This document shows positions 22 to 34,057 of a stretch of 34,218 nt of DNA, piece by piece (the stretch's first letter is position 1; every line of letters begins with the position of its first letter). Position numbers and translations under genes: made by a program. The notes below the pieces were generated by a model, which saw nothing but the letters and a program-made list of their open reading frames with translations, was not told the DNA's origin and ran no database searches. The stretch spans positions 5,955-40,172 of the forward strand of contig PDIM01010262.1 of the NCBI GenBank assembly GCA_002811675.1, given 5' to 3'. This DNA is from Ichthyosporea sp. XGB-2017a (Eukaryota; Opisthokonta; Ichthyosporea).

Positions 22-108
22 ATGCATAATAGTAGTAGAAAAGTGTTTGTTTTGGTAGTGACGGTTCTGTCCTGTCTGGTTCTGTTCGTGGGTGGTCTGG
101 TGAATGGG
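22..108 (+). other. Signal peptide of the giant protein
   Basis: Residues 1-29 have a short polar and basic head (Arg6, Lys7), a hydrophobic core of Val, Leu, Phe and Cys at about 8-23, and a small-residue region ending V-N-G before Glu30-Asp31. This is a classical secretory signal, with cleavage likely after Gly29. It also supports the ATG at 22 as the true start. Confidence 0.85.
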
Positions 109-3100
109 GAGGACCATCCCTCTTTGGATCTTCGGACTAAAGCGACACGAGCAGACGAAGTGTATGGATTATTGGGAAGTTACTATACGAACAGTAATTT
201 AGAGGGAATCCCTATTCAAAAACGTGTTGAGTGGGATTTTGATAAGAAAGGGATTGAAGATTTTTTCCAAGAGACTACGATAACGGAGATTCCTGAAGAT
301 CACATATTCTCAGCAAGATGGACTGGTTATGTGACTTTCCCGGACTCTGGGATTGTAGTTTTCCATATCGCTTGCAATGATGGAGCGAGACTGTATATCA
401 ATGATAACCTCGTTATTGATATTTGGGAGTTGGGAGTTCACCCTGGGACGGAGAGTCTTCATTGGCATGTGAAGAGTGGGAAGAGTTATCATATTATTTT
501 GGAGTATTATAATATACACGATAACCCGGAAATCACGCTGACATACCAAAAGTTGGAAGGCGATGGTTCGTCAGAGAGAGTTCCGCTTGCCAAGCAACAG
601 TTAAGTCCGGATACGGAAGTGCATGGGTTTGTTGGGCACTACTATGGCGGGACCCAACTTGAAGGGATAGAATTGTTCTCCGAAACAAACCCAAGACTGA
701 ATTTCCAGGAAGGATATGACAACTTTGCCGGGGACTTGGCCGAGTACGACGAATTTAGTGTTGAGTGGGAAGGGGCATTGGTGGTTGAAGAATCTCAATC
801 CTATGTCTTCCACGTCAGGACAAATGGGGGAACAACACTCTTTGTGGGTGCGCACTCTGTCTTGGACGAGTGGTACAAGCCCGACTCCTTGAGCGAGTAC
901 GAGACTAGATCCATATTACTTTCTCCGGGTTTTCGCTACATTATGAAAGTGAGGTTTTTCTTTCGGGGCCCTGGTACGCCTATTTTTGATTTAACGTACA
1001 GTTCAGATTCTTTTGCAAGAAAACCAATCCCTTCAAAGGATGTCTACTCCGAGGGGGGGAAGACAAATTTGATTTGGATTTTTGGAGCAGCTGGACCTGG
1101 ATACTATAGGGTGGAATCTGCCAACAAAGACACGAAAATCATTGAAGAGGAAGTTGATGGGATTGCCGACTTTATGTTAGTAGATAGTAGTGATGGCTCC
1201 GATGTTGGGGTCCTTACCGATGGACTCTTTATTGATAAATCTCGCTTTGAATTGGGGCGCTTTAACGTACGTGTTGATGGAATCATCCCGTATGATGGAA
1301 GTGTTAAGTTCTATGTCAACAACACATTGGTAAGGCTAGATAATGAATTGCCATATTTTATTGCAGGCGATTTGTTTGGGGCTCGTGATCAAGACGAGTC
1401 GATGGCTGCTTGGCATGTACCCGAAGGAACATACGTCATAAAAGCTGTCCCTTACAAACATCAGGATGGGACGGGTGGTGCATTAAAATCAAAAAATGTC
1501 ACCATCCACATTACGGCGTCCGAAACATATGAAGGAGTCACAGGGTTTGCGGTAATTGATGCGGCAACTGGACAACCAATACATTCTTTGCACAATGGAA
1601 TGGTTATTAACAAGACCAAATCAGACGAAGTTCACTTTAATGTGAAAGCCATCACGCACCCGGAAAAGGTGGGATCTGTCAAGTTCTATCTTAATGGAAC
1701 ATTGATTAAGATCGACGAAACGTTTCCATACAGTCCTGGGCCAGAAGAAAATGGTCATTATGAGCCCTGGGACACTGGTGATGGATATTTCGAAGTGTTA
1801 GCGAAGGCCTACACCGATAGAGACGGGGGTGGATTTGAGCTTCCGTCCCTCACCGTAGCCTTTTCGGTTTATTCTCCTCCCGATTTTGTTATTTCCCTTG
1901 AGCTCGTGGATGTGGTTTCGGGAAATATCATACAGACCTTGCAGCCAGGAAATGATATTGTAGATATCATGTTGGTACCATCAGGGGAATTCTCCATCCT
2001 GGCCCTTATTGAGCCCGCCGGAGAAGCAGGAAGTGTGATATTTTATATGAATGATGAAGTTCTTTCTGTTCAAAACGAAGCACCCTTTGCTGCGATGGGT
2101 CATGATAGTGGCATTTATACCCCTGTAGCCTTGCATGGGGGTGTGAATGATTTTAAAATTGAAGTATATCAAGGTAAAGATGGAACTGGCAGGTTCTTTC
2201 AGGAAATTTCGTCATCATTGAACTTCATTAATGTTCACGAAACACTCGGTGTGGTAGCCCTTGGAATAGTGAATATCGAGACGGGCGATATTGTGCAAAC
2301 GCTCACAGAGCCAAATGAAGTGTTCGATAGAGCAAATTTAACCCATGGAAAGTGGGGATTGATTGCAATCACTCATCCCGAAAATATTGGCAGCGTAGCG
2401 GTCAAAATTGATAGCAAACCAGAGGAAGTTTTGAATGACAAGCCGTTCTCCTTTTGCGGGGGTGAAAGTACCGAGATTCAAAGCTGCGTATGGGAAATTG
2501 AAGAAGGTGAGCATGTTCTGTATGCGGCGGCGTACAGTCAACCAGATAAAGGAGGGTTGACCCTTCTCTCAAAAGAGATCTCTTTGCTGGTATACAGCTC
2601 TTCAAACGTCGATGGTGTCACTGGCATCCAATACGTGGAGGTATTCAATACCAGTTCATATGGAGGTATCCAAAATGGCAGCGTAATAGAGCGTTCACAT
2701 TTCCACCTTGGAAGATATAATCTCCGAGCTATGGTTCATGATGAAAATGAGGTTCAAAGCGTAAAGTTTTACCTTGACAATAACTTTGTTATCACAGATA
2801 GTGAAGCACCATTTTATATGTGTGGTGAGCTCAATGATGAAATTAAGTCCTGCTTTATCGAGGATGGCTTTCACACTTTAACCGCCATCGCATATACCTA
2901 TCCTGGAGGGGTTGGAAATGAATACAAGCGATTCACCATTACAATATTAATCTCCACCTCTGTGCAAGTGGAGGGTGTAATGAAGTTCCTTTTAGTAGAC
3001 TCCTGGAACAATGAAGACTTGAGAGAAATTGAAGATGGTTCTATTGTTGATAGAGCCTGGGTCGAGGGTGGAAGATGGGCAATTAGAGCTCAAACAAAGC

Positions 3101-6100
3101 CCGAAACTATTGGCAGTGTCAAACTCTATTGGAACGGAAGAAGGATCTCGACTGATAACTCTTTCCCTTATTCGTTCTGTGGGGATGAAAGTGGGAACTA
3201 CACTTCTTGTATTTGGAACTATAAGGATGGAGTTCATACGATAAAAGCTGTTGGTTACGAACTTGAAAATGGTGGTGGTAGAATTCTTCCCGAGAAGAGT
3301 ATTACCTTCACCCTTATTACGTCTTCACAAGTTGATGGGGTTACTGATTTGCATCTCGTTAATGGAAACGATAACACTGTTGAACGGGAAGTGCCATTTG
3401 GAGGGATCATCGATAGAGCTGAATTTCAATATGGTGAATGGAACATGATTCCTACCACTTTTCCCGAAGATATTGATTACATCAAGTACACCATTAATGG
3501 ACGATATCATGCGAAGCGCACAGAAGCCCCATTTCCACTTTGCAGCAACCATACGTGCTATTTGAACGATGGTCATTATACAGTTTCAGCCACTGCGTAT
3601 CAAGTCAGGAATGGAAGGGCCCATCAATACCCCAGCTTTTCACTGAACTTCACTTTGATAACTAGTGAGCAGGTCGAGGGAGTTATGACTCTTCAGTTAG
3701 TTGATGCAGCGACTGGTCAATTTGTTCGTAATTTGACTGAGAGTGACCATATTGATAGATCCCTCATGACATACGGTGAATGGACTATACGAGCTATACT
3801 AGAATCAGCCACTGCAGGAACTGTCAAATTCTACAAAAATGACAGATACTTTTCGCAATCGAAATCGCCTCCATATTATCTCTGTGGAACTCATTCTACC
3901 TCTGTATCACCTTTGCCGTGTACTCAGCGGGTCGCAGAGGGGTTGCATAATATTAGCACCCGAGCATTTGCACCAAAAACAAATGGTCAAAGTAGAGAAA
4001 TCCCCGGGAATCGCGTTGAGGTTTCCATATCTTCTTCCTCCCATGTGGATGGGGTTATTCAGTTCACATTGATTAATGCATTCACATCGCAAGAGGAGAC
4101 GCTGATAGAGAATGAATTTCTGCTTGATAGGGCCCGTTTTCCGTATGGAATGTGGAATTTAAGAGCAGACTTTGCACCTCCTAGTATTAGAAGTGTCAAA
4201 TTCTACGTCGACGGTCGGTTTTTTGCCGTAGACAGTGAAGTCCCATTCTCGCTGTGTGGCGATTATGATTCCACATTCTTCTCGTGCAGAATATCGAATG
4301 GTAGTCACGTTATTAAAGCTGTGGCATACACTGAATTAAATGGAAGAGGGTATGCATATCCCGCTCTGGAAAAGTCTATCACCATTATTACCACATCACA
4401 AGTAGAAGGGGTGATGCTAATTAGTGTGGTGAATGCATTTGACAATTCCTTGGTATTTCAACTTGAGGATGGTGGCATCATTGATCGAGCTCAATTCGGT
4501 CAAGGGCAATGGAATTTACATGCACACACACAGCCAGCTGATCTGGTTAAGAGTGTTAGATGGTACTTGAATGGCAGGTCATACTCGCTTGATAGCAGTG
4601 AGCCATTTACACTCTGCTCCCCGAACAGTTTGTCATATGAGTCCTGTGTGTTTCTTGTTAGGGAGGGGACGTATGTTGTCACGACAAAAGCATACATGCT
4701 GGCAAATGGAAGAGGAGAAGTTCTACCTGGACAAAATATGTCATTTACAGTATTTTCATCAAAGCCTGTTGATGGTACAATTGGCTTTTCTCTTATCGAC
4801 CCTCCGACACAAGAGGAGATAATGCGCCTTTCGAGCAATAACTCAGTTATTGATAGATCTGAATTCCATTTGGGAAGGTGGAATATCCGCGCACTCACCG
4901 TTCCAAATAACACACATGCAGTGAGATTTTCTGTAAATGGGCGACATACATACACTGACTACACGTACCCTTTCCAATTGTGTGAGAAGGAAGATATGAA
5001 CTACTGTAGACTGAACGATGGGAGGTATGAAATATCTGCCCAAACGTTTGCTTTAGTTAATAACCGGTCCAGAGCCTTTGATAATATCTTTTACATGAAT
5101 GTTACCGTAGATACCCCAGAACAAGTAGAGGGGGTGTTTAATATAACAGCGTACGATTTTATCACTGGCGAAGAACGGGTTTTTCTTCGAAACGAAAGTG
5201 TTATTGATCGTGCACAGTTCACTACAGGACTCTTTAATTTGAAAATCACCACTGCTCCTGAAGAAGTACACGAGGTTCGAACATACTTGAATGGGCGTCA
5301 AATCTCACGAAATTTTGAGCTTCCTTACGTTGCATGTACGAATTCCACAAATAACTTCCCCATCGCCTGCAAATGGATCATTGACGAAGGTGAACACATT
5401 CTAAAGATCAGATCGTTTGTAAGGGAGGCTGGTCGTACTGTTGAGCTCCCGAGTAAAGAATTACACTTTACCGTTGTTCGCTCCAGACAAGTGGATGGCG
5501 TTCTGTCTGCTTCTTTAGTTGATGCAAACAACGGAACCGTGAGCCGTCGAGTCACAAATGGCAGCACAATTGATGTTGTTGAATTCGACATGGGACTGTT
5601 CAATATTGCGTCCAACGTAGCCCCCTCAAACATACAAAGTGTAGAGTATCGATTGAATGGTAAGCGGTACTCTATTGCGTCAGAAGAGCCATATTATTTA
5701 TGCACAGAGAGTTGCTTCTTCGACTTCGACCAATTTCATACCTTGGAAATAACTGCATTCACAGATGATAATGCCCGCGGAAAAAGATACCCAACTTTAG
5801 AAGTTAACTTTTTCTTAAAGAAGAGTTTTCAGGTAGATGGCGTAATGGACTTTGTTCTTGTTGATACTGTGACCAATGAAATTGTTGGTGAACTGACGGA
5901 TGGAGGGGTTATAGATCGTTCAGAATTTACGTATGGGTTATTCAGTATCAAGGCAGTCACCATTCCGCGAAATGTAGGAAGTGTTACCTTTTATTTGAAT
6001 GATAGGTATATTAATAGAGATAACAACTCTCCTTACCACTCCTGCGGCGAAACCAATGACACTGTTCATGGGTGCCGATGGACCATTACCGATGATAGCC

Positions 6101-21100: not shown

Positions 21101-24100
21101 TGATGTTTCAACTTGAGGTTACAACACCGGTGATTCCACGTGTGGAGAGCTTTTTGCTAAAGAATAGTAACGGGGACAGTCTGGGTGAGCTGAATGATGG
21201 CAGCAGAGTTCGATTGCAAGCAAACGAAAAGTTTAACGTAGAGGCCATTGTTGTACCCCCAGAAGCTGAAATGGAGGCTTTGATATTTGTACTGAACGGC
21301 AACCCATTTGTACGCCCAACAGCACCCTATATGCTCTGCCCAATACAAGAAGGGTGTCTTTTTGATCTTGGAAAGGCAACTATTAAGGCATTCCCAGTAC
21401 TACCTAAAGACGTTGACGGTCATATTTTCCCCAAAGAGGTGAATGTAACAGTTTTGCCTCCGTATACAATGTCTCTATTGCTCCTAGATGGGGATTCTGG
21501 AATTGATATAAGGGTTCTTAGTCACCAAGACACATTAGAAACCTCTGAAGCCTCGAATGGAAATTTTAATTTGGAATTTAGAATGTCAGAATCAGTACCA
21601 AAGATGAATATCTACGATAATGACGAGTTGATAATTGGTGATACTACGCTTCCTTACACTCTATGTGAAGGAACCTGTAAAGGAGTTGTTGAGGATGGTC
21701 TACATACTTTCCGAGCTAACGTACTCGATGAGGGTGGGACGGTTGTATTCGAAAAAACATTTACCATAACTGTGAGTACACCGATTATTCCAGAAATTCC
21801 ACATGTTAGTCTTGTTAACAGGCAAAGCGACCATATTTCAAGAATTGAAGACGGCGATTCCTTCCGATTAAGTGAAAATGGAAAGTCTCAATATTCTTTG
21901 ATGGCTCATCCTGACCCATCCCCAGTCGGAAGCATTGAATTTAAGATTAATGGCACTTCAAAGCAGACTGAAAATTATGTGCCTTATTGTATGTGTGGAG
22001 ACAATGGTAGAATATGTCATGCGTGCTCCCTTTCCCCAGGAAAGCTTACCGTGGAGTTTATTCCCTATGAAGCAAGACGAAGAGGCGGAGAGCGGTACCC
22101 ATCCAAGATAATGACATTTGATGTTTTGCCTGCTTTCCATTCTGCATTGCATTTCATTGATTCCAACTCAAGCGAATTTATTCGGGAACTTAGCCACACT
22201 GATATTGTCGAGAAGTATGAAAGTAATTCTGCGTCTTGGGACTTAAAGATTGTAGTATCAGAGCAAGTCAATCGCATTGTTGTTACGATTGACGACGAAC
22301 CCAGCGCAATACTGCAGCATGCCCCCTTTTTGCTTTGTGGTTCATCTAGCGGCTGCACCATGGCTGATGGTTCTCATATCATCAACATCGTTGTATTTGA
22401 CGTAACTAACGCTGCAGTGTCAAATAAGACATACACGTTGACTGTTACTACTCCTATGATTCCATACGTAAAAGCACTCCAGTTGTTTGATCCTTCAAGC
22501 TCCTGGACTCAGGAGATATTCGACAATGACGTTATTCGATTAGAAGAGGGAAAGGAATTAAATGTGAAAGCCATTTTGGAGCCCGATACTGGAGATGTGG
22601 GAGTTGCAATGAGCTTTGGTGGAGCAACTAGGCATGAAAAACATTTACCCTACACTTTGTGCCCCAAAGATGAGGGATGCAACTTTGCCCCAGGTGAAAC
22701 TGAAATACGAGCAATTCCATTTTCGGAGGATGGCAGCACAAATCTTCCGTTTGTTGCTAAAGAGGTCACGCTGACCCTTCTCCCGCCGTATGAGATGACA
22801 GCAGTTTTGATTGACACCCAGAATGGAGTCACAATTAGACAGTTGTCTCACAAAGACACTGTGGAGACAAATGAAGCCTCATCTGGCAACTACAACATTG
22901 AATTTGTAGTGTCAGAGCCTGTACATGGTATGAATATCTATATTGCCGGGGAACTGTTTGAAACCAGCACCGGGGGACCTTTCGCATTGTGTGGACGAGA
23001 GAACGGCATTTTTAACTCCTGCATAGGCAAACTAGCCGATGGCTCCTATGAAATTAAGGCCGATGTATTGGATGCCGATAATACTGTAGTGTTCTCTAAA
23101 TCCTTTACATTTGCCATTTCAACCCCGATTATTCCTGAAATTCCTAGTGTATTGCTGGTCGACCGTATCAATGGAGACACGAAGAAAGAAATATTTGATG
23201 GTGATAGTTTTCGCCTTAATAGTGAGAATGAACGTCAATTCGCTCTTCAAGCTCTCCCAGAACCATCACCAGTTGGAAGCATTGAATTCAAAATCAATGG
23301 CACTTCAAAACAAACCGAAAATTACGTTCCATATTGTATGTGTGGAGACAATGGTAAAATATGCCACCCTTGCGCAATATCTACTGGACAAATGGTGGTG
23401 GAACTCGTGCCTTATGAGAAGAAACGCAAAGGTGGTATTGAATACCCCTCAAAGATAATGGTGTTCAACGTTTTGCCTGCATTCACAACTGTTCTGTCAC
23501 TAGTGGATTCTGATACAGATTCACAATTGCGTTTGCTTTCTCATAAGGATACCATAGAAACATATGAAGCATCGAAAGGAAACTGGAATGTTAAGATTTC
23601 AGTGTCAGAGAGCATTAGCTACATGAACTTCTATGTAGATAATCACCTGATAAATAGAGCTACTACCGCACCTTACACAATGTGTGGTAGTTCCAATGGT
23701 GACATACTGTCTTGTAGTGGAAAAATTGAAGACGGACAGCATCACATTACTGTTGAAGTTTATGATCTGAATGGACAACTTCTTTCTAGTAATAGTTATG
23801 AATTTTCTGTTATAACTCCGATCATTCCTATAGTTAAGCACTTGAAGTTGGTTGAAGTAGGAGGAGCTGAAAATATCATAGACGAACTGTATGATAATTA
23901 TGTACTGAGGTTGAATAGTTCTCAGAAGTATAACGTCAGAGCATTTTTAGAACCCGATGAAAGTCACCTCGGGGTTGCCATGTCTCTGGACGGTGTTACA
24001 CGCATGGAAAGACATGATCCATACACTCTCTGCCCTCGCTGGGAGGGCTGTAACTTTGCCCCAGGCTCAGTCAACATTCATACTATTCCGTTTGATGAGA

Positions 24101-27100
24101 ATGGAGCCTCAAACGTGCCCTTTGGACCCAAAGAACTGACTTTGGTAATCCTTCCGGCTTATGCAATTAACTCCTATTTTATCAATACGGATACGCAGGG
24201 AGTAATTCGAAGCACCTCTCACGAAGACTCTTTTGTAACTTCAGAAGCTGCCGATGGGAACTTTAATATCAAATTTGAAGTGTCTGAGGCGGTCTTTGGA
24301 ATGAAAGTGTACGTAAACAATACAGTAATTAGAACTGCGCAGTCTGAACCGTATTCGCTGTGTGGTGATGTATCTGGACAGTTACAGTCTTGCGTGGGCC
24401 AACTTCCGGACGGCTTGCATACTATAAGGCTCGAGTTACTGACCAGCGAAGAGGCGGTGGTTTATTCCAAGACGTACAATGTTAGAATTTCAACCCCAAT
24501 TGTTCCTGAAATTACTCGAGTAGATGTTGTATTACCTGATGGAAGCATTCAATCGGAATTAACAGATGGGCGTGTTATAAGAACAGACCAAAATGGATTT
24601 CCATTTGGAATTCAAGTTCACACTCTACCTGAAAATATAGAAAAAGTCGATTTTTCTGTTAATAGCACAAGTGTTGCATCCGAAACTGAACAGCCGTATT
24701 GTATGTGCGGAAAGACAGCTGATGACAATTGCTCCCCTTGTACTAATTTTCAACCAGGGACTATGCAACTTTCTTTTACCCCACATTTGAATGGTAAATC
24801 GTATGCTGATAAGCAACTGCAATTAACAGTACTACCCACTCTTGGTCTGAACGCTCATGTCATTGACAAAGATGGGGAGGTTCAAGGTCAGGTGCCCAGT
24901 AATGGTCCCTACGAAATCGAACCCAGAAGTTTTCGCGACCAGGAGTGGTTTATTGAGTTTCATCCAAGTGAGTCCGTTAGCTACATCAATATTTATGTAG
25001 ACGGAAACTTGGTGAAATCTGATAGAGGATATCCATATAGCTTGTGCGAGAGCAATGGTGTTTCGTCACCTTGCAACTCTCACATTGCTCCCGGGAAGCA
25101 TGGTATAACTGTAGAAGTACGGGACTCCGTCATGGACCGATATGCCACTTTTCAATTCACTATAATAGTATTTGAAACGATCACACCAGAGGTTGTATCC
25201 CTTGAAATGATCGATGTAGAATCCGGAGTATCCAAAGGACTAGTCACGGACGGAGCTACGTTCGTAATAAGCCCCGAAGACATTGGGAAATATTCTATAG
25301 TGGCTCACATAGAACCAATTGACGTTCCAAGTGTCCGATTCGCTCTAAATGGGTATTTAAATACAGACAACCAAGGACCCTATAGCTTGTGTGGAGAAGC
25401 ACCAGGGCAAGATCATGCTCCATGTCAATTGTCCTATGGCTCACAGAGCCTTGAAGTGACTCTGTTTGAAGAAAAGGATGCAAATGGGGGAGTTATATCG
25501 GCTTCTACAGCAGCTTTTACTATTAAACCCCCTGTGAGTATTAAGATTCAACTCGTTGACTCTACATCAGGAGTGAAAGCCAGACAGCTCAGTTCCAGGG
25601 ATATCCTGGAACCAAATGAGCAGAATGACGGAAACTATAATATTCTGTTTGAGATTTCTGAAACAGTGAGTTCTGTGGAGCTCTTGAAGGGCGATACCTT
25701 GATTGGAGTAAAGTCTGAAAGTACGCCACATGCCCTGTGTGGGTTTTCAAATGATCAATATTTGCCATGCGCAGATACAATTCCCGTAGGATCTCATTCA
25801 TTGGTCATAAAGGTTACTCTCCTTGATGGGTCACTGAAAACATTTGCATTTTACTTGACCATTTCAAGTATTCCAGCCCCGCATCCGCTTGAATATTTCG
25901 CAGTATTCCCTGAAATGGATACTGATCCTTTGCATGTTGAGGCCAACGACGCCATTTATTTGGGTAGTTCGCCTTTGGACATCGAGGCGCGATTTCCGGC
26001 CGAGTTTGCAGGAAGCGTGGAATTCCAATTCGGTACAGTGTCTGTTTTGCGAAATTCTGCACCGTTTCGACTATGTGGGGTTGACAATCCCGGCCCAGGC
26101 TGTCTCTCTGCCGGCACAATGGAAGTTACGATTCGTGCACACGCTGGGAAAGATGGCTCAGGCTATCATTTTCCAGCGATTTCTACTGTTTTCTTCATTA
26201 AGAACCCAGTTCAGTTTTCATTTAATCTGATAGATGCTACCAAGGATACTGTGCAAAGAGAAATCCAATCTGGGGACTCCTTTAGAATTCAAGACTGTTC
26301 AAACGGAGAATGGAACATACAAGCTGCTGTCTCCGAAACTGTGGGAAGTGTTGTATTCGACGGAGTAGCACGGCGAACGGAAAATTATTATCCTTATGCC
26401 TTGTGCAGTGATTGGCGTGGTAACTATAACTCTTGCCACCGTCATATCGTACCTGGTACACACAGTTTTACCGCCAAAGCCTACAGTGAAGACGGCGGAA
26501 AAGGCATGTTGATGGGTGAAGAAGATTTTACATTTACCGTTATTGAAGACATTGGGCAGGTTGTAAGCTTTATGCTATACGACGCAAAGAATGACATACC
26601 GATTGGTCCAATCGACAATGGTGATGTTATTGACTTTGAAATTCATGGAAAAGAATTAACGATCGTTGCTGTAACAGACCCCGAAACAGTTGGAAGTGTT
26701 AAAATGGAGTTTAATGACAAGCACAGAACGGAAAACTACAAACCATATTCCCTGTGTACTGAGTATACCATAGGAAATTTTATTGATTGCAAATTTACTC
26801 CAGGACAGACAATAACGGTTAAGGCTACTCCTTATTCGAAGTCACACCTGAGAGGCATCGAAGGCAAAGGAAAGTCTATTACTGTTAGTGTGAAAAATGA
26901 GCCTATAAATACCGATTTTGATATTTTCTTGTTCGACGTTGAAACTCAGGCTGTTGCAAAAGAGCTACTGGACAAAGAAGTAATTGACAGAGCTGATTTT
27001 GCTGACGGTCAATGGGCTATTAAATTGTCTCTTCCCGCAACTGCTCGAAGTGTAGATGTGCTGGTGGATGATGCGAAGTTAAAAGGCCGTTCTAAGCATG

Positions 27101-27792
27101 ATTTAGATAGCGTTTGTGGCACTCGTCGAGGTTCACTTAAGACTTGCATATGGCAAATCCCGGAGGGAACACATACCTTGAAAATCACTGCCTATGCTGA
27201 GAAGAACCTGAAAGGTGCTGTAATTGGTCATATAGAAAGAGATTTTGAAGTAATGAGTTCTGAAAAGATCGATGGTGTCACAAAACTTTACCTTGTAGAT
27301 GTGGAAACTGGGAACGATATAGAAGAGATAACTGACGGAGCCAAAATCAGCGTGGACAAGGACAAAGCATATAATGTAAGAGCTGAAGTAGCACCAGTGA
27401 GTTCGGTGAAAAGCGTTGTTTTCGAGTTTCGGGGTGAGAAGGTCAAGGACAGTTCCTCTCCTTTCAGCTTGTGTAGGGACAAGACGAAAAAGAAAGTAGT
27501 TGAATATGATGAGTGTGAGTCGCTCGAAAGTGGCACATACTCTCTGAAGGCAACTGCTTACAACTTATGGAAAGGGCGTGGTGACAGTTATATGCCACTG
27601 GACGTGACGTTCGAAATTGAAATGAGCGGGGAAGAGGAAGATGAAGACGAAGATAAAGGAAAAGGAAAAGGAAAAGGAAAAGGAAATGAAGATGAAGATG
27701 AAGATGAAGATGAAGATGAAGATGAAGATGAAGATGAAGATGAAGATGAAGATGAAAGCAAAGGCAAGGGCAAGGGCAAAGGCAAAGACTAA
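22..27792 (+). CDS. Giant secreted PA14 / Ig-like repeat protein (9256 aa), probable fibrillar adhesin or matrix protein
   Basis: One open frame starts at an ATG preceded by a purine-rich leader and ends at TAA. It encodes a signal peptide (residues 1-29), PA14 domains at about 46-178 and 199-332, a linker to about 374, about 75 tandem repeats of ~118 residues (375 to ~9200), and a charged Lys-Gly/Glu-Asp tail. The repeat core reads roughly DG-x-x-IDR-A, G-x-WNI, VGSVxFYVNGR, DN-x-x-PY-x-L-C, DG-x-HxIKAIAY, then a (Q/P)V(D/E)GV linker. This resembles bacterial Ig-like repeats of the Big_9 type, with an added cysteine pair per repeat. There is no C-terminal membrane helix or GPI signal. Many N-x-S/T sequons fit a secreted glycoprotein. 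Known giant bacterial adhesins combine long Ig-like stalks with ligand-binding tips, so an adhesive or cell-surface matrix fibre is inferred. Function, partner and ligand are not shown by the sequence. The frame and domain order are certain; the role is not. Confidence 0.93.
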   Translation: MHNSSRKVFVLVVTVLSCLVLFVGGLVNGEDHPSLDLRTKATRADEVYGLLGSYYTNSNLEGIPIQKRVEWDFDKKGIEDFFQETTITEIPEDHIFSARWTGYVTFPDSGIVVFHIACNDGARLYINDNLVIDIWELGVHPGTESLHWHVKSGKSYHIILEYYNIHDNPEITLTYQKLEGDGSSERVPLAKQQLSPDTEVHGFVGHYYGGTQLEGIELFSETNPRLNFQEGYDNFAGDLAEYDEFSVEWEGALVVEESQSYVFHVRTNGGTTLFVGAHSVLDEWYKPDSLSEYETRSILLSPGFRYIMKVRFFFRGPGTPIFDLTYSSDSFARKPIPSKDVYSEGGKTNLIWIFGAAGPGYYRVESANKDTKIIEEEVDGIADFMLVDSSDGSDVGVLTDGLFIDKSRFELGRFNVRVDGIIPYDGSVKFYVNNTLVRLDNELPYFIAGDLFGARDQDESMAAWHVPEGTYVIKAVPYKHQDGTGGALKSKNVTIHITASETYEGVTGFAVIDAATGQPIHSLHNGMVINKTKSDEVHFNVKAITHPEKVGSVKFYLNGTLIKIDETFPYSPGPEENGHYEPWDTGDGYFEVLAKAYTDRDGGGFELPSLTVAFSVYSPPDFVISLELVDVVSGNIIQTLQPGNDIVDIMLVPSGEFSILALIEPAGEAGSVIFYMNDEVLSVQNEAPFAAMGHDSGIYTPVALHGGVNDFKIEVYQGKDGTGRFFQEISSSLNFINVHETLGVVALGIVNIETGDIVQTLTEPNEVFDRANLTHGKWGLIAITHPENIGSVAVKIDSKPEEVLNDKPFSFCGGESTEIQSCVWEIEEGEHVLYAAAYSQPDKGGLTLLSKEISLLVYSSSNVDGVTGIQYVEVFNTSSYGGIQNGSVIERSHFHLGRYNLRAMVHDENEVQSVKFYLDNNFVITDSEAPFYMCGELNDEIKSCFIEDGFHTLTAIAYTYPGGVGNEYKRFTITILISTSVQVEGVMKFLLVDSWNNEDLREIEDGSIVDRAWVEGGRWAIRAQTKPETIGSVKLYWNGRRISTDNSFPYSFCGDESGNYTSCIWNYKDGVHTIKAVGYELENGGGRILPEKSITFTLITSSQVDGVTDLHLVNGNDNTVEREVPFGGIIDRAEFQYGEWNMIPTTFPEDIDYIKYTINGRYHAKRTEAPFPLCSNHTCYLNDGHYTVSATAYQVRNGRAHQYPSFSLNFTLITSEQVEGVMTLQLVDAATGQFVRNLTESDHIDRSLMTYGEWTIRAILESATAGTVKFYKNDRYFSQSKSPPYYLCGTHSTSVSPLPCTQRVAEGLHNISTRAFAPKTNGQSREIPGNRVEVSISSSSHVDGVIQFTLINAFTSQEETLIENEFLLDRARFPYGMWNLRADFAPPSIRSVKFYVDGRFFAVDSEVPFSLCGDYDSTFFSCRISNGSHVIKAVAYTELNGRGYAYPALEKSITIITTSQVEGVMLISVVNAFDNSLVFQLEDGGIIDRAQFGQGQWNLHAHTQPADLVKSVRWYLNGRSYSLDSSEPFTLCSPNSLSYESCVFLVREGTYVVTTKAYMLANGRGEVLPGQNMSFTVFSSKPVDGTIGFSLIDPPTQEEIMRLSSNNSVIDRSEFHLGRWNIRALTVPNNTHAVRFSVNGRHTYTDYTYPFQLCEKEDMNYCRLNDGRYEISAQTFALVNNRSRAFDNIFYMNVTVDTPEQVEGVFNITAYDFITGEERVFLRNESVIDRAQFTTGLFNLKITTAPEEVHEVRTYLNGRQISRNFELPYVACTNSTNNFPIACKWIIDEGEHILKIRSFVREAGRTVELPSKELHFTVVRSRQVDGVLSASLVDANNGTVSRRVTNGSTIDVVEFDMGLFNIASNVAPSNIQSVEYRLNGKRYSIASEEPYYLCTESCFFDFDQFHTLEITAFTDDNARGKRYPTLEVNFFLKKSFQVDGVMDFVLVDTVTNEIVGELTDGGVIDRSEFTYGLFSIKAVTIPRNVGSVTFYLNDRYINRDNNSPYHSCGETNDTVHGCRWTITDDSHFINAVAHSEANGRGRLMDGRNISFSVMSSSYVDGVTGFAIVNANNNQIFSRLNDGDSIDRANFEQGKWSIKALTAPPGSVSMVNFYINDRYVGKDMEEMFYLCGDVNGTATRCRYYDGEYNISALAFTESRKRYDLHKISFNLFSSRKVEGVMHFRLFNVINQTESRNIIQGDVIERSFFKHGQWAIEAITVPPVVGSVKFYVNGRYVRKDNLHPYAACGQENEELQTCVWLMGDGEHSLSAKAYTGSDGRGFVLPGLELNFTIVTSKPVDGVVGFLDVDSASDTVGNLLVNGTTLDRATYPFGHWNLMAITQPNDVLSVKFLVNGRSVRVDNSQPFTLCPSESGDFDTCELEDGVHSITAVAYRQINARGAAYPSYKFVLNVTTSTQVDGVMQFFLVDSRTDQIIREVFNEDVVDRSQLTYGEWNLKAVTIPPTMRSVHMYANGRRVYTDVEVPYSVCKSNATNFENCAWRIPDGRHEITSIPVRLGYGRVFPSKSINLTITTSTRVNGVMNFTLVNTTSEEYVSLVENNTVIDRAGFPQGKWSLLLSTAPATVGSVKIYVDGRYRRVDNEFPYTLCGDREDEQDDDDDDEEDDDDDLNEGNLFQRCRLGDGRHTIKAIAYQQANGRGYSYPAHEIAVEVITSRQVEGVFTFHAFDVSTGNDTVVVEHGGEVDRALTSKGLWNLRVDTVPYPTGSVAFYVNGRLRHVDNTAPYVACTDSDIGCIWLMKHGTHTVKAVAYEGANRTGYALPSKEITFDVFTSEPVDGVIAYYLQDVLNQEEVYPAITNGSVIDRANFKEGEWNIRGHTNPFVGSVAFYVNGRCVRVDNQAPYFLCETNNTAIPCRYKYGWHKFEFRAFTEANAKGHRYPYFVITVNVTASRQVDGVMSVHLVDANTGLVVRELFDGSFIDRAQFATGRWNLIARTIPTNLGSVIAYADKRRIQISNERPFTACGYNHTVGEFDSCVWKIRDGVRRVIFTAHRDANGRGEKLPGRNFSLTIGPSFQVDGVVRFAAVNVLNNSIVTNVTNRSTIQRSEFDDGMWNVEAITAPAQVGKVAFYVNGRRIMVDSTYPYRLCEEMCYYNDGPYSIKAIAYSPEGYEYPAFTITFNLHTETKVDGVMKVFLVDAESNEVVKEIVDGALIDRSFVTHGRWNLMAETIPSSVGSTVAYVDRRRLYRDNHPPYSICGDDGDGYDNCVWSIKDGEHSLRVSAYVNANQRGFKYPELNLQFTVFRSQPVEGVTGFTLIDANDGSIKRAIVNGSTIDRAEFEQGKYDLIANIATPDILSVRYHVDNRHFDTQPTNASNMLCADNDYCRFKDGFITIKATSYLGENGSGKAYPPTSFILQIITSEQVNGVMSLSLMQSSNGNITRNMVENDLIDRASFPLGEWNIRANTIPEIVGSVRFYVNGRHLRTDNDAPYTACGDNGTEIESCLWKISDGQNTINAIAYVGADGKGEKLPNHEIHFNLMQSKSIDGVIGFILVDINTNTEIRRIHNGDVIDRADFYRGNWTMKAIVQPEDIGSVAVYANGRYSHVDSSSPFSLCGDLSGIFPNFQRCNFADGDHEIVATAYTLPGRKGKAYPPFGLNFRVRTSTRVEGVMAISAIESNTGAIKQPIFNEGTVDRADFAEGRWNIALDIIPSWADVHIYINRRRVERDGSEPYYVCGEEDGNAASCLWKLPNGSHNIKVIAYDGRMALPGADINVTVLTSRRVDGVMSLTLIDADSQTLHENLSQDSIVDRSRFYRGRWSLLATVVPGQFIESVSFYRNGRHIRTDNDAPYTLCGETNGTYTACATNFLNNGEHDLEVIAFTGDNRKGSKYPSLHVPFELISSARFEGVINLTAFDGVTGDDHKVLTDFDEIERSNFTLGVWNIRADMIPKESGSIKVYVDGRYKRLDNVFPFTACDENCLWSIGNGLHIVKVVPYEGKNGTGAALPHSEKAIMVETSYPVDGTIGYNLIHANHTIHTTAFQTNGVVDRSDFFRGRWNMDIVTAPDSIKSVRVYINGRHFRTTNAKPYVLCDDHCSSLSGNLDIKTVAYTEANARGKAYPANYIRVNVKTTTRVEGLLELILVDSVSGNSSGHLLNNSVIDRSKFTSGQWGITAITLPKHNATLTAYVDGRRVFSNDPQMGCPYQLPGLQHPTCVWHIKDGAHKLDFRIVEKVNGRSYSLPGTVIFVNVVSPPHIDGVTHFELVDAYDDSKARTLTSGHHLVDRADFELGRWNIEASANEGIVGSVKFYRNGRYIGIDNDPPFTLCPEEAGDFSSCFWNDGNYTIKATAFTLEKGRGYSYGPFSANITLVTSSQVEGVFEFILIDAFTDAAIRQLSSQDIIDRSETSTGSWSIQAMTKPSNVGSVSFYVNGRFFSRDNEFPFSLCGGNGTDHESCWWNINHGEYKIEAIAHELPNGKGRRLPGSVINAKIFSSSNIDGVTDIALVDAHNDKVVRVLASNSVIERSDFFMGQWNLVARTAGPSIGSVHFYVNSRRFAIDSVYPYTLCKETNGTYESCRFADGNLTLTAIAYTEKINGRVKAYSPLELNLTIQTSTQVEGVMSLVAVDAVTNREVIELQNGTVLDRSIFSAGSWNILCKTIPEKGLHKVDMYVNGRRIRSDDDFPYSMCGDFGPNNYTSCFWYMNDGVFEVKAIPYANMSNKIIRLPHQEMVITVVTSTPVHGVTGVVLIDAHHQTRVKSLENNTSIDRFDFIEGKWNAAFVTATHVETIHKANVYIDGRLSHVDFSYPLSLCKDTDGVFDTCLLEDGFHNITVIPYNSKRQRFPEFKFGINVTTSSQVNGVMSLTAIEADTGRAIATLVDGSVIERSRLAIGRWNIRANKIPRDTGSVVFYVNKRRTYIANEFPFALCGFKNGTYESCSRSIFDGNHTLLAEAFTDINGRGRKLPSHEVQFQVITRVPVDGVVSFVVIDALNGTAHEPIVNNSIIDRSSFTQGKWTIQGIVSPSSIGSVHFYLNGRRLNTDNAAPFYSCDDSTNAPIACDLDEGIYTLKALAYEQPNAKGFRFPANEITFSVITSTQVTGVNSMRVFSTQSNTIAKTIVENAVIDRGDFPGGHFGISAQTFEGTKSVVFSLNGRSIRVDSEAPFTMCGDELDISGTCFWNLPEGNHVIQAVGFEDVGGRGNRLPERTFNIEVISSVYNAGTVSYNLVEGNDTVIESLDANDVIDRFLFYRGRWNIRVVTEPEVVGSVAVYVDGKYKTTANSPPYTVCNEDCSSWTNQQHTIKTVAYTEANRRGKSYPPNYLNVTVKTSRRVEGVMDLILIDTVTGQEMEQLFNNSFINRGDFTHGQWGVKIVTHPEVDVYTQAYIDKRNILTDKVAPFSLCPPITKDVSDDFPTCVWRIGDGPHVIRVRAFEMVNKRAIALPETEINVEVFSPVNVDGVTELQLIDSNSNSVIANISHGSTIDRSQFHLGRWNIRGDVHPLSISRVIYYINGRKVRDDRESPFALCAEEDGDYDTCYLPDGKHSLKAIAYELSTSSRYKYSPIEMDFNLVTTIPVEGVMNLHLIATESNETMQEIVDETVVLRSSVLYGSWNIVMNVTENVDYVLVYINGRYKRKETKGPLSVCGSTGDSLNNCLWTMQDGEHKLLLKPYEKGTRRALPIFEVSFQVLTNSAVDGVVASALVDANNNTVYENVTDGGTIDRARFNLGKWNLHFATVPDAVDKVKIYINGRYIREDKSRPFTLCNDANGAYCTLGDGEHSVKAIAYASRNKYPERSFKINVETSEQVEGVMSLSLIDAYNGTSHGPLDPSTVIDRSSLTFGMWTLRANTLPDNVGRVDFYVNGKRKYIDKKAPYYACGEENDERKSCSWMIPEGQRTIQAIAYDVKNKRLPDHKIEAVILSSYKVDGVLNFTLFDIDTNEDIRELRDQSNITIGEGSLGNYGIRGNTHAIVGSVAFFSNGRRLYVDNSHAYNVCGEKSGKALPCTFPPGEYKIKGTAYSSASGRGNAYSPLEITINILPRPILPVQAFVFDMTSNNSISSLRDGSEIDRSSTLEGKWNIAFDISSIGSLKFEIDRKVFGSVNNDQSNANILLCTDETHGCLWDIKEGNHVLNIKGYEQADGAGKYIGEKTISFALITKDRVDGIVSFTLVNSEDISEEYGVLSEGLIIDPNECMNCTYNIIGENVPNDIQSVKFILNGATFVDNEHLFSVCEDVCPFTLGENSLEAIAYTQKGAKGHSYPPYKIKFWVGTPTTSITVKLVDAYTEKDVRTIGDMDTIDRASVTHGLWAMRFVPPALLGVKSFKVYVDGKKIHTDSSPPYSSCGDKNSDFEDCVWIIPEGEHTIKAEGFLKSSGRGGKAIEKVFNTTITSSQQVDGLMKFVLLDTVRQTPLYDLADQHFIDQEIVVDGLWNIEASVAPKDHIRSVKFLINGVKKIDNSFPYTLCGELASAGASACHYDPGNYSIVATPFTKSNAKGNAYPSKTLLLEVGEVPIPPPVVVTELVDLEAMQYTRLSGSEWNITNAHISFVDWSITFKTDRPVGRFVIEKDGQVVSDDDSTPHSICGQVNGELQSCFGLLNNGAHSIKITIYEVNANTVVYTADFTLHNEVQYLNVFGDSYVVDTLTGQDISTVTDGGKVDLALLSGMGFNVRFEQAIPITSVRIQMNSWSRIENEGPFSLCGYDQTSNAYLNCDQVDDTFVVSLIAYSRSNGEGSVIARKEFSFSLAYSKVILVQFSLYDVESEGVIRTVSSGDVLHSAELRSKWNIQASLSRPIGSLEFKINDTLTSVSNIGPFYACGLDSYGVQTCTSNIAFGYATFSVKAFSGPNGGGLEIGSGQVTLNIVDTEIPSLLLTLVKVESNGTTVDVRHLDTNDHIGYSDVGSNEWNIHITPSTGVGKLTLNGNELIATAEGVYKLCDTVCNLYEVEKWHSFEVKTFFIDVGRIFLLSSNEIQIHVDGPVEGTLQLTNGDGSVLRRLSHADVIQTTSAVNGEWNALLTLNKNISVLETVIDDVSFSNQTISPFMLCVGGSCGGVIKDGSYKVVFKVFKHYTLIGELMFQLEVTTPVIPRVESFLLKNSNGDSLGELNDGSRVRLQANEKFNVEAIVVPPEAEMEALIFVLNGNPFVRPTAPYMLCPIQEGCLFDLGKATIKAFPVLPKDVDGHIFPKEVNVTVLPPYTMSLLLLDGDSGIDIRVLSHQDTLETSEASNGNFNLEFRMSESVPKMNIYDNDELIIGDTTLPYTLCEGTCKGVVEDGLHTFRANVLDEGGTVVFEKTFTITVSTPIIPEIPHVSLVNRQSDHISRIEDGDSFRLSENGKSQYSLMAHPDPSPVGSIEFKINGTSKQTENYVPYCMCGDNGRICHACSLSPGKLTVEFIPYEARRRGGERYPSKIMTFDVLPAFHSALHFIDSNSSEFIRELSHTDIVEKYESNSASWDLKIVVSEQVNRIVVTIDDEPSAILQHAPFLLCGSSSGCTMADGSHIINIVVFDVTNAAVSNKTYTLTVTTPMIPYVKALQLFDPSSSWTQEIFDNDVIRLEEGKELNVKAILEPDTGDVGVAMSFGGATRHEKHLPYTLCPKDEGCNFAPGETEIRAIPFSEDGSTNLPFVAKEVTLTLLPPYEMTAVLIDTQNGVTIRQLSHKDTVETNEASSGNYNIEFVVSEPVHGMNIYIAGELFETSTGGPFALCGRENGIFNSCIGKLADGSYEIKADVLDADNTVVFSKSFTFAISTPIIPEIPSVLLVDRINGDTKKEIFDGDSFRLNSENERQFALQALPEPSPVGSIEFKINGTSKQTENYVPYCMCGDNGKICHPCAISTGQMVVELVPYEKKRKGGIEYPSKIMVFNVLPAFTTVLSLVDSDTDSQLRLLSHKDTIETYEASKGNWNVKISVSESISYMNFYVDNHLINRATTAPYTMCGSSNGDILSCSGKIEDGQHHITVEVYDLNGQLLSSNSYEFSVITPIIPIVKHLKLVEVGGAENIIDELYDNYVLRLNSSQKYNVRAFLEPDESHLGVAMSLDGVTRMERHDPYTLCPRWEGCNFAPGSVNIHTIPFDENGASNVPFGPKELTLVILPAYAINSYFINTDTQGVIRSTSHEDSFVTSEAADGNFNIKFEVSEAVFGMKVYVNNTVIRTAQSEPYSLCGDVSGQLQSCVGQLPDGLHTIRLELLTSEEAVVYSKTYNVRISTPIVPEITRVDVVLPDGSIQSELTDGRVIRTDQNGFPFGIQVHTLPENIEKVDFSVNSTSVASETEQPYCMCGKTADDNCSPCTNFQPGTMQLSFTPHLNGKSYADKQLQLTVLPTLGLNAHVIDKDGEVQGQVPSNGPYEIEPRSFRDQEWFIEFHPSESVSYINIYVDGNLVKSDRGYPYSLCESNGVSSPCNSHIAPGKHGITVEVRDSVMDRYATFQFTIIVFETITPEVVSLEMIDVESGVSKGLVTDGATFVISPEDIGKYSIVAHIEPIDVPSVRFALNGYLNTDNQGPYSLCGEAPGQDHAPCQLSYGSQSLEVTLFEEKDANGGVISASTAAFTIKPPVSIKIQLVDSTSGVKARQLSSRDILEPNEQNDGNYNILFEISETVSSVELLKGDTLIGVKSESTPHALCGFSNDQYLPCADTIPVGSHSLVIKVTLLDGSLKTFAFYLTISSIPAPHPLEYFAVFPEMDTDPLHVEANDAIYLGSSPLDIEARFPAEFAGSVEFQFGTVSVLRNSAPFRLCGVDNPGPGCLSAGTMEVTIRAHAGKDGSGYHFPAISTVFFIKNPVQFSFNLIDATKDTVQREIQSGDSFRIQDCSNGEWNIQAAVSETVGSVVFDGVARRTENYYPYALCSDWRGNYNSCHRHIVPGTHSFTAKAYSEDGGKGMLMGEEDFTFTVIEDIGQVVSFMLYDAKNDIPIGPIDNGDVIDFEIHGKELTIVAVTDPETVGSVKMEFNDKHRTENYKPYSLCTEYTIGNFIDCKFTPGQTITVKATPYSKSHLRGIEGKGKSITVSVKNEPINTDFDIFLFDVETQAVAKELLDKEVIDRADFADGQWAIKLSLPATARSVDVLVDDAKLKGRSKHDLDSVCGTRRGSLKTCIWQIPEGTHTLKITAYAEKNLKGAVIGHIERDFEVMSSEKIDGVTKLYLVDVETGNDIEEITDGAKISVDKDKAYNVRAEVAPVSSVKSVVFEFRGEKVKDSSSPFSLCRDKTKKKVVEYDECESLESGTYSLKATAYNLWKGRGDSYMPLDVTFEIEMSGEEEDEDEDKGKGKGKGKGNEDEDEDEDEDEDEDEDEDEDEDESKGKGKGKGKD
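157..555 (+). other. PA14 domain 1
   Basis: Residues ~46-178 begin with VYGLLGSYY, typical of the PA14 N-terminal strand. They contain the core W-x-G-x-V, a proline-glycine turn, then NDGARLYINDNLVID followed by W, and end with a tyrosine-rich strand and ITLTYQ. PA14 is a beta-barrel seen in bacterial toxins and glycosidases and in yeast flocculins, where it often binds carbohydrate. The acidic ND and D-x-W positions match the family pattern. The placement suggests a membrane-distal ligand-binding head; the ligand is unknown. Confidence 0.88.
616..1017 (+). other. PA14 domain 2
   Basis: Residues ~199-332 again start with a VHGFVGHYYGG strand. They contain VEWEGALVV, a FHVRTNGGTTLFVG segment and a closing PIFDLTYSS strand. 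Compared with domain 1 the acidic loop has changed: NDGARLYIND is replaced by NGGTTLFVG, so the canonical Asp is missing at that site. Two adjacent PA14 domains that differ in the presumed binding loop may have different ligands, or one may be structural only. Confidence 0.82.
1144..2241 (+). repeat. Ig-like repeats 1-3, lacking the cysteine pair
   Basis: Three repeats (starting at 1144, 1525 and 1882) have the fold signature: VDG or YEG linkers, GSVKFYVN, P(Y/F) and a late G-x-x-x-I/V-A strand. The loop after P(Y/F) has no cysteines, whereas from repeat 4 onwards nearly every unit has two. These membrane-distal, PA14-proximal units look closest to ordinary bacterial Ig-like domains. They could be either the ancestral state or a diverged adaptor. 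Confidence 0.8.
2242..18006 (+). repeat. Ig-like repeats 4-47: cysteine-paired, alternating A/B units
   Basis: Forty-four repeats of about 105-140 residues (~350 bp) follow, with linkers at 2605, 2965, 3328, 3670 and so on. Even-numbered A units typically have C-x-W-x-I-x-(D/E)G in the cysteine loop and end near an LP(G/S) turn. Odd-numbered B units have a loop about two residues shorter, usually C-x-x-DG without Trp, and end near YP. B-to-A linkers are usually QVEGVM or RVEGVM; A-to-B linkers are often PVDGV, NVDGVT or HIDGVT. The dimer is therefore about 235 residues (~0.7 kb). DNA copies have diverged, so this is an old array and not a recent expansion. Each cysteine pair probably forms a disulfide stapling the loop after the PY strand. 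Confidence 0.9.
7846..7896 (+). repeat. Asp/Glu-rich insertion in the cysteine loop of repeat 19 (GAT/GAA microsatellite)
   Basis: A run of GAT, GAC and GAA codons encodes about 17 almost wholly acidic residues. It sits between the two cysteines of repeat 19, where other units have only a few residues. The DNA is an impure trinucleotide repeat, so the tract probably arose by slippage. An acidic cluster in an exposed loop could bind calcium; that is inference. Confidence 0.85.
18007..21129 (+). repeat. Diverged Ig-like repeats 48-56
   Basis: From repeat 48 the VDGV linker is often lost: ILPVQAF at 18007, TSITV in repeat 50, PPVVV in repeat 52. The IDR-A motif fades, although W-N-I, the cysteine pair and the DG/EG turn remain. 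Repeat 49 adds a C-x-x-C in front of its third strand. Repeat 56 starts at 20809 and introduces the LSH-x-D motif used in the next zone. The segment looks like a junction between two independently expanded blocks. Confidence 0.75.
21130..25182 (+). repeat. Three copies of a four-unit Ig-like block (repeats 57-60, 61-64, 65-68)
   Basis: Blocks start at 21130, 22456 and 23821, giving periods of 1326 and 1365 nt. Within each, units 1 and 3 start with an (I/V)(I/V)P-x proline linker and units 2 and 4 start after LP(P/A/T). Unit 1 of blocks 2 and 3 shares VGVAMS and EGCNFAPG. Unit 2 shares SH-x-D, EA and GN(F/Y)N(I/L). Unit 3 carries four cysteines, C-x-C then C-x-x-C. Unit 3 of blocks 1 and 2 shares 31 identical consecutive residues (21916-22008 and 23263-23355) with many synonymous differences. 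This duplication is more recent than the rest of the array, and purifying selection has probably acted since. Confidence 0.87.
25183..27630 (+). repeat. C-terminal Ig-like repeats 69-75
   Basis: Seven units lead to the tail. Units 69-73 keep the divergent proline-rich linkers. Unit 74 (from 26905) and unit 75 (from 27265) return towards the main-array consensus: unit 74 has VIDRADF, GQWAIK and C-x-W-x-I-P-E-G, and unit 75 has KIDGVTKLYLVD. Unit 75 has a lysine-rich loop between its cysteines. The array ends at about residue 9203. Confidence 0.78.
27631..27789 (+). repeat. Block-charged C-terminal tail: acidic, (KG)n, (ED)n, (KG)n
   Basis: The last ~53 residues are a polyampholyte. A short acidic run is followed by (AAAGGA)5 at 27655-27684 coding Lys-Gly repeats. 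Next is (GAAGAT)11 plus GAA at 27688-27756, coding 23 alternating Glu/Asp. A second Lys-Gly run then leads to a final Asp and TAA. The pure hexamer is a coding microsatellite and is likely length-variable. Alternating blocks of opposite charge could drive self-association, bind mineral or polysaccharide, or anchor the fibre to the wall; none of these is shown. Confidence 0.9.
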
Positions 27793-28030: not shown

Positions 28031-28312
28031 TCAATGAAATACAGTCTCCGAAATCTCTGCTATTTCAGCAACAATTCCAAAGCATAACCAAAGCGACCCC
28101 GCATTGTCTTCCACCCTGACGTCAACATTGTATCCACCTCCAGGAACAGTTGAAGGGATTGGTTGCTGCATTGTAATGGTATGCTCACCAGTCTCAAATG
28201 GACAAGGCTGAAGATCACAAATGTTATAGTCCAGACTAGTCAAAGGGGTACGATTCACATCGTCATCGGTCATACTTGATATTGCTACACGCCACATACT
28301 TTGGATGGGACC
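28031..28312 (-). CDS. C-terminal half of an ML (MD-2/NPC2-like) lipid-recognition domain; exon or gene remnant
   Basis: The frame is open from just after an in-frame TGA (28313-28315) to the stop at 28031; its first ATG is at 28297. It reads YNIC-D-x-x-P-CPF-x-x-GEH, then IPSTVP-GGGYNV-x-V, EDNAGS-LWLC and VAEI. This is the order expected for the second half of an ML domain: the LC-x-x-x-CP motif, the IP-x-x-P-G-x-Y strand, and a late cysteine before the last strand. The N-terminal half and a signal peptide are not found in this frame. They may lie in an upstream exon or be lost. ML proteins are small secreted lipid or sterol binders. The family is fairly sure; whether the gene is intact is not. 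A polyadenylation signal just downstream favours a transcribed gene. Confidence 0.6.
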   Translation of the reverse strand, partial: GPIQSMWRVAISSMTDDDVNRTPLTSLDYNICDLQPCPFETGEHTITMQQPIPSTVPGGGYNVDVRVEDNAGSLWLCFGIVAEIAEISETVFH

Positions 28313-30389: not shown

Positions 30390-31170
30390 TGTGCTAATCA
30401 GTAATCTATACTTGTCAATCAAAGAGGCTGGACAGAAGAATATATGTCCTTCTGTGTACTTTCTCAAAGGAACCCGGAGAGGAGGAGGTCCAAACAACTG
30501 CCTTTACACAGGTTTGTTTGTCCTTCTTCCCCTTTACCATAAACACCTGCCTTAGCATTCCTGCCTGTCTCTTTTTCTTCTTGAACCATCACGTGGATAA
30601 TGAGCTAATTAAATGTTAATTGCCACATTTTGCTAATTAGCATATAGTGGGATTTTGTCCTCCTGTGGACAGGGGGACAGATTATCTTCTAACCCTTTTG
30701 CTAGACTGTGAATTGTAATGAGAGTCTTTCAAGCTCCACAGGAATGAAGTCGGTGCCTTTGTCCTTATTCTGAAACAAACCCGGAACAAACCAGACATGT
30801 TTGCAGTAAGATGGGCAAATAGTACGGCGACCTTGGAAATCAATAGACCTTTTAATTAGTGTAAAGGAGCAACTAAGACAGGGAACTGACTATTTAGTAT
30901 TTTGGGCAAGGTTGCTGACTTGTACCAATTGTGTTTTAATCTTAGATGCCATTCTGGCCTACGTTTATTTGCCTTTAGAACCTCGAAGTAGGAGCACAGT
31001 GCGCAACCAGAAAGCAACACAATAAGTCAAAAGTCGCATGTCCCGTTACTTCTTTCTGGAACTATTAGTGGTGTTAAGCGAAAAGTGCACTGGGGGCAGG
31101 TGCACAAAAGCTCCATGTGCAATTTAGAGAGTTGAAAGATAGGGATTTCGCGACGGGAAATGTTTTCTAG
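30390..31170. promoter_or_regulatory. Divergent intergenic region between the RCC1-like and GNAT-like genes
   Basis: No convincing coding frame is seen in these ~780 bases. They should hold both promoters. Visible elements are CACGTG at 30590-30595, an AT-rich segment at about 30600-30650 with a perfect 10-bp palindrome GCTAATTAGC at 30632-30641, and a related GAGCTAATTA just before it. No clear TATA box was recognised. The right end (TTTTCTAG, 31163-31170) could be a 3' splice site for the coding frame that follows. Confidence 0.4.
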
Positions 31171-33844: not shown

Positions 33845-34057
33845 CAAAAGAAACAGTTTCATTTCAATGAAGAAAAACTAATCTAAAATCGAAGACGTCT
33901 CAAGTCAAAAGGTGTAAAGCGACATTTTTGGCGCGCTTTTTGATCAAAAAATGCTATCATTTCTTTAACTTTTTCTTTCTTTCTTCTTTTTCTCCTTTCT
34001 CCTTTCCTCTTTCTCCCAACGGGCCATGGCCCAGAGCCCAGGCCCCTCTTCGGTATT
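33845..34057. other. Spacer with an E2F-like site and a pyrimidine tract
   Basis: TTTGGCGC at 33927-33934, within TTTTTGGCGCGCTTTTTG, matches the E2F/DP consensus TTTSSCGC. From about 33960 to 34017 the plus strand is almost pure T and C. Read on the minus strand, it encodes Lys, Arg and Glu in a frame (33883-34206) that is open to the window edge. No clear gene is established. Confidence 0.3.

Follow-up and report, generated by a model that had tools for sequence, protein, structure and literature searches.

The 34,218-nucleotide stretch of contig PDIM01010262.1 of Ichthyosporea sp. XGB-2017a analysed here (the window; C136:5955-40172 in the genome searched) carries, in a single open reading frame (ORF), the gene of a giant protein of 9256 amino acids made of a signal-like start, two PA14 domains, 75 immunoglobulin (Ig)-like repeats and a charged tail. 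We favour, with moderate confidence, the reading that its product is a secreted fibre with a polysaccharide-binding head, which would connect cells with one another or with a substrate, or make up an extracellular coat. The genome searched comprises 25.06 Mb in 291 contigs, and one of its proteins, 1482 residues long and encoded on contig C38, matches the EukProt protein Nk52_evm19s1737 with 100% identity. An Nk52_evm number is assigned to Chromosphaera perkinsii in a passage of PMC6981761, and passages of PMC5560861 describe this organism as a dermocystid ichthyosporean from marine sediment with a published assembly of 34.6 Mb. The genome is thus that of C. perkinsii, in a partial copy or a different assembly, so that absences in it are weak evidence. 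Corallochytrium (0.0 introns per coding kb and 24.1 Mb in passages of PMC5560861) was considered as the source and rejected, because NIR_SIR had no match in the genome searched, whereas passages of PMC6400420 describe a nitrate assimilation cluster in C. limacisporum, and because of the Nk52 identity. The parts of the giant gene are the following:

22-27792, plus strand: giant PA14/Ig-like protein, single ORF of 9256 amino acids, ATG start, preceded by an in-frame TAA at 13-15 of the printed sequence
22-108, plus strand: signal-peptide-like N-terminus from hydropathy, residues 1-29, end approximate
163-561, plus strand: PA14 domain 1, residues 48-180 (E 6.1e-16), NDG at the position of DDG in RsgI3
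622-984, plus strand: PA14 domain 2, residues 201-321 (E 6.5e-12), NGG at that position
1153-19404, plus strand: stalk zone 1, made of the Ig-like repeats W1-W51 (residues 378-6461), with two-repeat periodicity and sequon enrichment
19429-27618, plus strand: stalk zone 2, made of the Ig-like repeats W52-W75 (residues 6470-9199), which diverge more and show no sequon enrichment
21469-24144, plus strand: block of four repeats, W58-W61, present again as W62-W65, with 65% identity in the best pair
27622-27789, plus strand: hydrophilic tail, an acidic run flanked by KG repeats, without hydrophobic C-terminal segment and without LPxTG

A first-pass annotation made from the sequence alone had claimed one long frame of 9256 residues, which was borne out, and had called it intronless, a term that holds for the open frame itself, which is unbroken. 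Since passages of PMC5560861 give 0.7 introns per coding kb for C. perkinsii, such a long single exon is less odd here than in an animal. A sequence check found no N base in the ORF or in the rest of the window, and the GC content at third codon positions (GC3) of the giant gene is 0.39. Tandem Repeats Finder, run on the DNA sequence, reported only two short runs within the ORF (7858-7892 and 27631-27756) and no array in the stalk, so that reads could probably be placed along it. The hydropathy profile, from which the putative signal peptide was called, has its maximum at residues 8-27 (19-residue mean of 2.85, and at most 1.74 elsewhere), and N-glycosylation sequons in residues 20-9200 amount to 110, vs 81 ± 8 in shuffled sequences. 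Both observations are consistent with the secretory-type features proposed earlier, and the product, with a calculated mass of 1.02 MDa once the first 25 residues are removed, may be an extracellular fibre of C. perkinsii.

The stalk was resolved by an iterated hidden Markov model (HMM) into 75 repeats of about 116 residues, with start-to-start spacings of 106-126 residues (exceptions: 139, 98, 146 and 79). In addition, an HMM built from the 47 repeats of a single relative, P0001, recovered 76 segments in the giant protein, because an acidic insert splits repeat 19 in two, whereas a reversed and a shuffled version of the protein, one of each, gave no segment. Pfam family PF17957, whose gathering cut-off is 24.1 bits, exceeded this value in all three pieces spanning the protein (125.6, 187.9 and 78.7 bits). 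Scanned alone at E ≤ 0.1, 15 of 33 single repeats matched the family, and the one for which a score is given reached 21.2 bits, under the cut-off. The count of about 75 Ig-like domains proposed in the first-pass annotation thus stands, with PF17957 named Big_7 (bacterial Ig domain) in the Pfam copy used, and not Big_9. Structure prediction of three repeats returned Ig/Fn3-like sandwiches with a predicted local distance difference test (pLDDT) value of 91, pointing to the expected fold. Foldseek rows for this model included SiiE, a 1.5-MDa ice-binding adhesin, PrgB and GhpA, together with Fn3-like modules, pilins, S-layer proteins and cadherins, with low whole-model TM-scores throughout; titin was absent among the 50 matches listed in VIA-align 2, which excludes nothing. 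At least two cysteines are present in 72 of the 75 domains, which would be able to make a local disulfide. An Ig-like domain spans about 4 nm as a general value, so that the array could form a rod of about 300 nm.

Constraint is indicated by P0001 (5527 amino acids, source ENA), the only giant relative at E ≤ 0.001 among 3029 candidates. This protein is collinear with residues 2683-8159 of the giant protein over 5461 aligned residues with 52.6% identity, and within the aligned span it keeps 101 of 102 cysteines, 53 of 60 tryptophans and 45 of 71 sequons. The best match was found at the same position in the giant protein for 40 of the 47 P0001 repeats; six of the remaining seven lie within the duplicated stretch W58-W66, and the seventh, P13, matched W42 best, with the collinear W32 two bits lower. 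In a tree of repeats, 36 of the 47 were exclusive sisters of the collinear giant repeat, two more formed non-collinear pairs with a giant repeat (support 0.05 and 0.00), four paired within P0001 and five had no single sister. Because best matches and tree sisters are mostly collinear, the domains over repeats 20-66 already had their present number and order when the two species diverged, and outside W58-W66 homogenisation is hardly visible. Altogether, these comparisons indicate that the giant gene is old and constrained. RGD tripeptides occur four times in the giant protein, at residues 5081, 5314, 5450 and 9186 (window 15262-16377 and 27577-27585, plus strand), and once in P0001, at residue 2643.

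Sequons are unevenly distributed along the stalk. W1-W51 hold 96, a number that none of 1000 shuffles reached (57.2 expected), and W52-W75 hold 14, vs 22.1 expected. The final eight repeats have none, with 4.5 expected for residues 8391-9199 (seven repeats). In P0001, the equivalent of zone 1 holds 71 sequons, vs 38.3 expected (0 of 1000 as high), and that of zone 2 holds 16, vs 12.7 expected (177 of 1000 as high). Sequon enrichment is thus confined to the head-side zone in both species, from which it would follow that the fibre carries N-glycans on the head-side two thirds of the rod and is barer, with few of them, on the tail-side third. Regarding the growth of the array, repeats at even spacing are more alike than those at odd spacing both in W1-W51 (32.5% vs 29.7% identity) and in W52-W75 (24.9% vs 19.4%), a difference reached by 0 of 1000 permutations in each zone, and the top spacing in W1-W51, tested up to 23, was ten repeats (35.1% identity). 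These values suggest growth from a two-domain unit followed by larger block duplications, plus the four-repeat block in zone 2.

The two-PA14 head of the first-pass annotation was recovered by PF07691, with 102.7 bits vs a cut-off of 24 in two stretches. Calcium-dependent PA14 lectins of the Flo5/Epa1 type have a DD motif in the calcium loop; the giant protein has NDG in its first PA14 domain and NGG in its second. RsgI3 of Clostridium thermocellum (PDB 6qe7) aligned with the head over 295 residues covering both PA14 domains (E 3e-24). It has the same PA14-PA14 arrangement, with NGG in the second domain of both proteins, but differs in the DDG of its first domain and in being part of a bacterial anti-sigma sensor. 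According to passages of PMC4711584, the RsgI3 dyad binds pectin and works in plant-polysaccharide sensing, and on the basis of this homology the head of the giant protein may bind polysaccharide as well. The AlphaFold model of the head, obtained from a two-row alignment, had a pLDDT of 50 and is unreliable.

The charged tail was confirmed, with 32 D/E and 10 K in residues 9201-9256. Since no membrane anchor was seen, this soluble tail would keep the fibre in a coat or wall by charge or via a partner. SiiE and GhpA are very large proteins, and giant adhesins secreted by the RTX/type I route carry a C-terminal array of RTX nonapeptides. The giant protein resembles SiiE, the ice-binding adhesin MpAFP and Aureispira GhpA (best Foldseek rows, E 4.1e-6, 1.9e-7 and 7.3e-7, respectively) in its size and long tandem Ig-like stalk. 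Unlike bacterial giant Ig-like adhesins, it has an N-terminal head, cysteine-bearing domains, sequons and a eukaryotic genome, and lacks LPxTG (no match) and an RTX array, with a single GGxGxD at residue 4402 and three looser GxGxD, one of them at 9252 within the KG tail. The bacterial giant-adhesin plan put forward in the first-pass annotation therefore holds as a general plan, with SiiE, MpAFP, PrgB and GhpA among the Foldseek rows, and fails as membership. Cadherins are marked by LDRE and DxND motifs; the giant protein has no LDRE-type motif and three scattered DxND, and none of the three pieces spanning it matched Pfam Cadherin at E ≤ 0.01. Unlike titin and fibronectin, its repeats gave no I-set or fn3 match (33 repeats, E ≤ 0.1), and the Fn3-like modules of CbhA (PDB 3pdd, 3pe9) differ in being cellulase modules without a 75-domain array. 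Passages of PMC3188802 present colossin A (ColA) of Dictyostelium as a structural protein with many copies of a bacterial-type repeat. The giant protein is likewise a eukaryotic protein of many bacterial-type repeats, but those of colossin A are Cna_B, for which neither the three pieces (E ≤ 0.01) nor the 33 repeats (E ≤ 0.1) gave a match. With no RTX array, no LPxTG and no Cna_B, the giant protein is, as tested, a member of neither group, but its way of working would resemble that of giant Ig-like adhesins or of colossin A.

The same module was found in five further proteins on three other contigs of the genome (C38, C7 and C199), and a frame with PA14 domains was found on a fourth, C195:

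L019:2599-7044, minus strand: C38 protein of 1482 amino acids with nine modules (profile search), a hydrophobic span and a cytosolic-type tail
L020:1280-2269, L020:2946-3764, L021:992-2824 and L022:2397-3650, plus strand: single-module proteins with the module C-terminal, three on C7 and one on C199
L023:6404-9850, plus strand: 1149-codon frame on C195 with three PA14 stretches, two of them holding DDG by eye, and Laminin_G_3

P0011, a relative of the C38 protein, is 46% identical to it across 80% of the C38 protein, and in an alignment of the two the hydrophobic span and several cytosolic tyrosine motifs are kept, including YDPSDPEWIRYYA, YYHP, SYLTA, YSNYDN and YDDP. The genome gave 12 SH2 matches and three frames, on C10, C41 and C268, in which SH2 occurs together with a tyrosine-kinase-type domain. 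Based on these conserved motifs and on the presence of SH2 and tyrosine-kinase genes, the C38 protein looks like a receptor signalling by phosphotyrosine. The three C7 proteins have a signal-like start by eye, the C199 protein is membrane-type, and each of the four ends in a short stretch past the module; the L021 protein also contains Kazal domains. Adjoining the C199 protein, by eye, is a leucine-rich-repeat-like protein (L022:3914-7000, minus strand), in which YDEP motifs recur near the C-terminus and a hydrophobic span is present. A 10684-residue frame on contig C64 was considered as a second giant and rejected as an artefact of N runs, since 17722 of the 39954 bases of the stretch read there are N; by eye, this stretch adjoins a gene with kinase- and cyclase-like sequence.

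A bacterial contaminant, or the recent transfer of a whole bacterial giant-adhesin gene, would agree with the occurrence of PF17957 and PA14 in prokaryotic control genomes and of full-length modules in proteins of prokaryotic look. We consider this explanation extremely improbable, and contamination as such unlikely, because the assembly holds SH2 and tyrosine-kinase genes as well as the protein identical to an annotated C. perkinsii one, in line with the eukaryotic genome of the first-pass annotation, and because the paralogues lie on three other contigs. Furthermore, in the phylogeny of repeats, the 142 modules of this genome, P0001 and P0011 separated with a support of 0.946 from 20 prokaryote-type modules, a label judged for P0003-P0005, P0010 and P0012 from contig, source and domain features. 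When GTDB contigs were scanned with four of the repeats, an approach that reaches close relatives only, 125 pattern stretches were returned, none of them a relative. The module itself may nevertheless have been transferred in ancient times. It is also very improbable that the frame is an assembly artefact, a pseudogene or several genes fused in silico. Draft assemblies may mis-build repeats and no transcript was seen in this analysis; against this, the ORF is free of N, its stalk has no DNA-level array that would prevent the placement of reads, and 47 repeats stand in the same order in a separate source, P0001. Collinearity thus disfavours both a pseudogene and an assembly expansion for repeats 20-66, and expansion, raised in the first-pass annotation as a possible refutation, is unlikely over residues 2683-8159; the head, repeats 1-19 and repeats 67-75 fall outside this comparison.

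As for function, the product might be a coat or wall protein with a purely structural role, as in colossin A, packed as a fibre in wall or capsule with the PA14 head only anchoring it to wall polysaccharide. The lack of a visible membrane anchor in the hydropathy profile and the conservation of length and order, as fits a structural part, are in agreement with this alternative, which overlaps with a secreted adhesive fibre; the adhesin-like plan with the head at one end speaks against it, although nothing is decisive, and we regard it as rather unlikely. Quite improbable, in our opinion, is a fibre for nutrient capture or predation, with the PA14 dyad gripping external polysaccharide or prey. 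The sensing role of the RsgI3 dyad would fit such a use, as would P0007, a head-matching protein named chitodextrinase by its source, and the sole NCBIfam match to the head, part of a xylosidase model (48.5 vs 1250 bits, far under the cut-off). On the contrary, the tail is soluble, and none of the three pieces spanning the giant protein matched a catalytic Pfam domain at E ≤ 0.01. The secreted bridging or coat-building fibre with a sugar-binding head remains the reading that we prefer.

Downstream of the giant gene, the window contains the following features:

28031-28312, minus strand: ML-domain (PF02221) fragment in a short open stretch (E 2.6e-9)
28971-30497, minus strand: 508-codon frame with seven RCC1_2 repeats (E 1.3e-52), an N-terminal part that is acidic and rich in Tyr and, by eye, a single hydrophobic span
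31335-32864, plus strand: 509-codon frame with no Pfam match over the cut-off, GC3 0.55 vs 0.39 for the giant gene
34057-34218: 42-bp tandem repeat, 3.9 copies, ending with the window at the contig end

Two open stretches near the ML-domain fragment, on the same strand, had no Pfam match, so that this fragment may reflect either introns or a decayed gene. The 508-codon frame seems to encode a type II membrane protein whose cytosolic tail bears tyrosines, and the 509-codon frame has, by eye only, an acetyltransferase-like stretch. The window contains no RNA family at gathering score and no tRNA gene.

In open-licence papers searched by titles and passages, we found no description of such a giant PA14/Ig-like protein, nor anything on what holds C. 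perkinsii cells and coat together. The conservation described here is titin-like, domain by domain, in a seemingly extracellular protist protein whose module is named by Pfam after bacteria. A broader proposal, tentative and doubtful at present, is that the giant fibre, the small single-module secreted proteins and the single-pass module receptor, whose conserved tyrosine motifs would feed the SH2/tyrosine-kinase machinery, make up an adhesion or matrix system in C. perkinsii, which divides by cell cleavage, and in a second species. If true, a matrix-to-phosphotyrosine pathway based on a disulfide-bearing, bacterial-type Ig module would exist independently of the animal toolkit. The megadalton fibre gene and the membrane paralogue with tyrosine motifs constitute a testable gene set for cohesion outside the animal cadherin/integrin toolkit.
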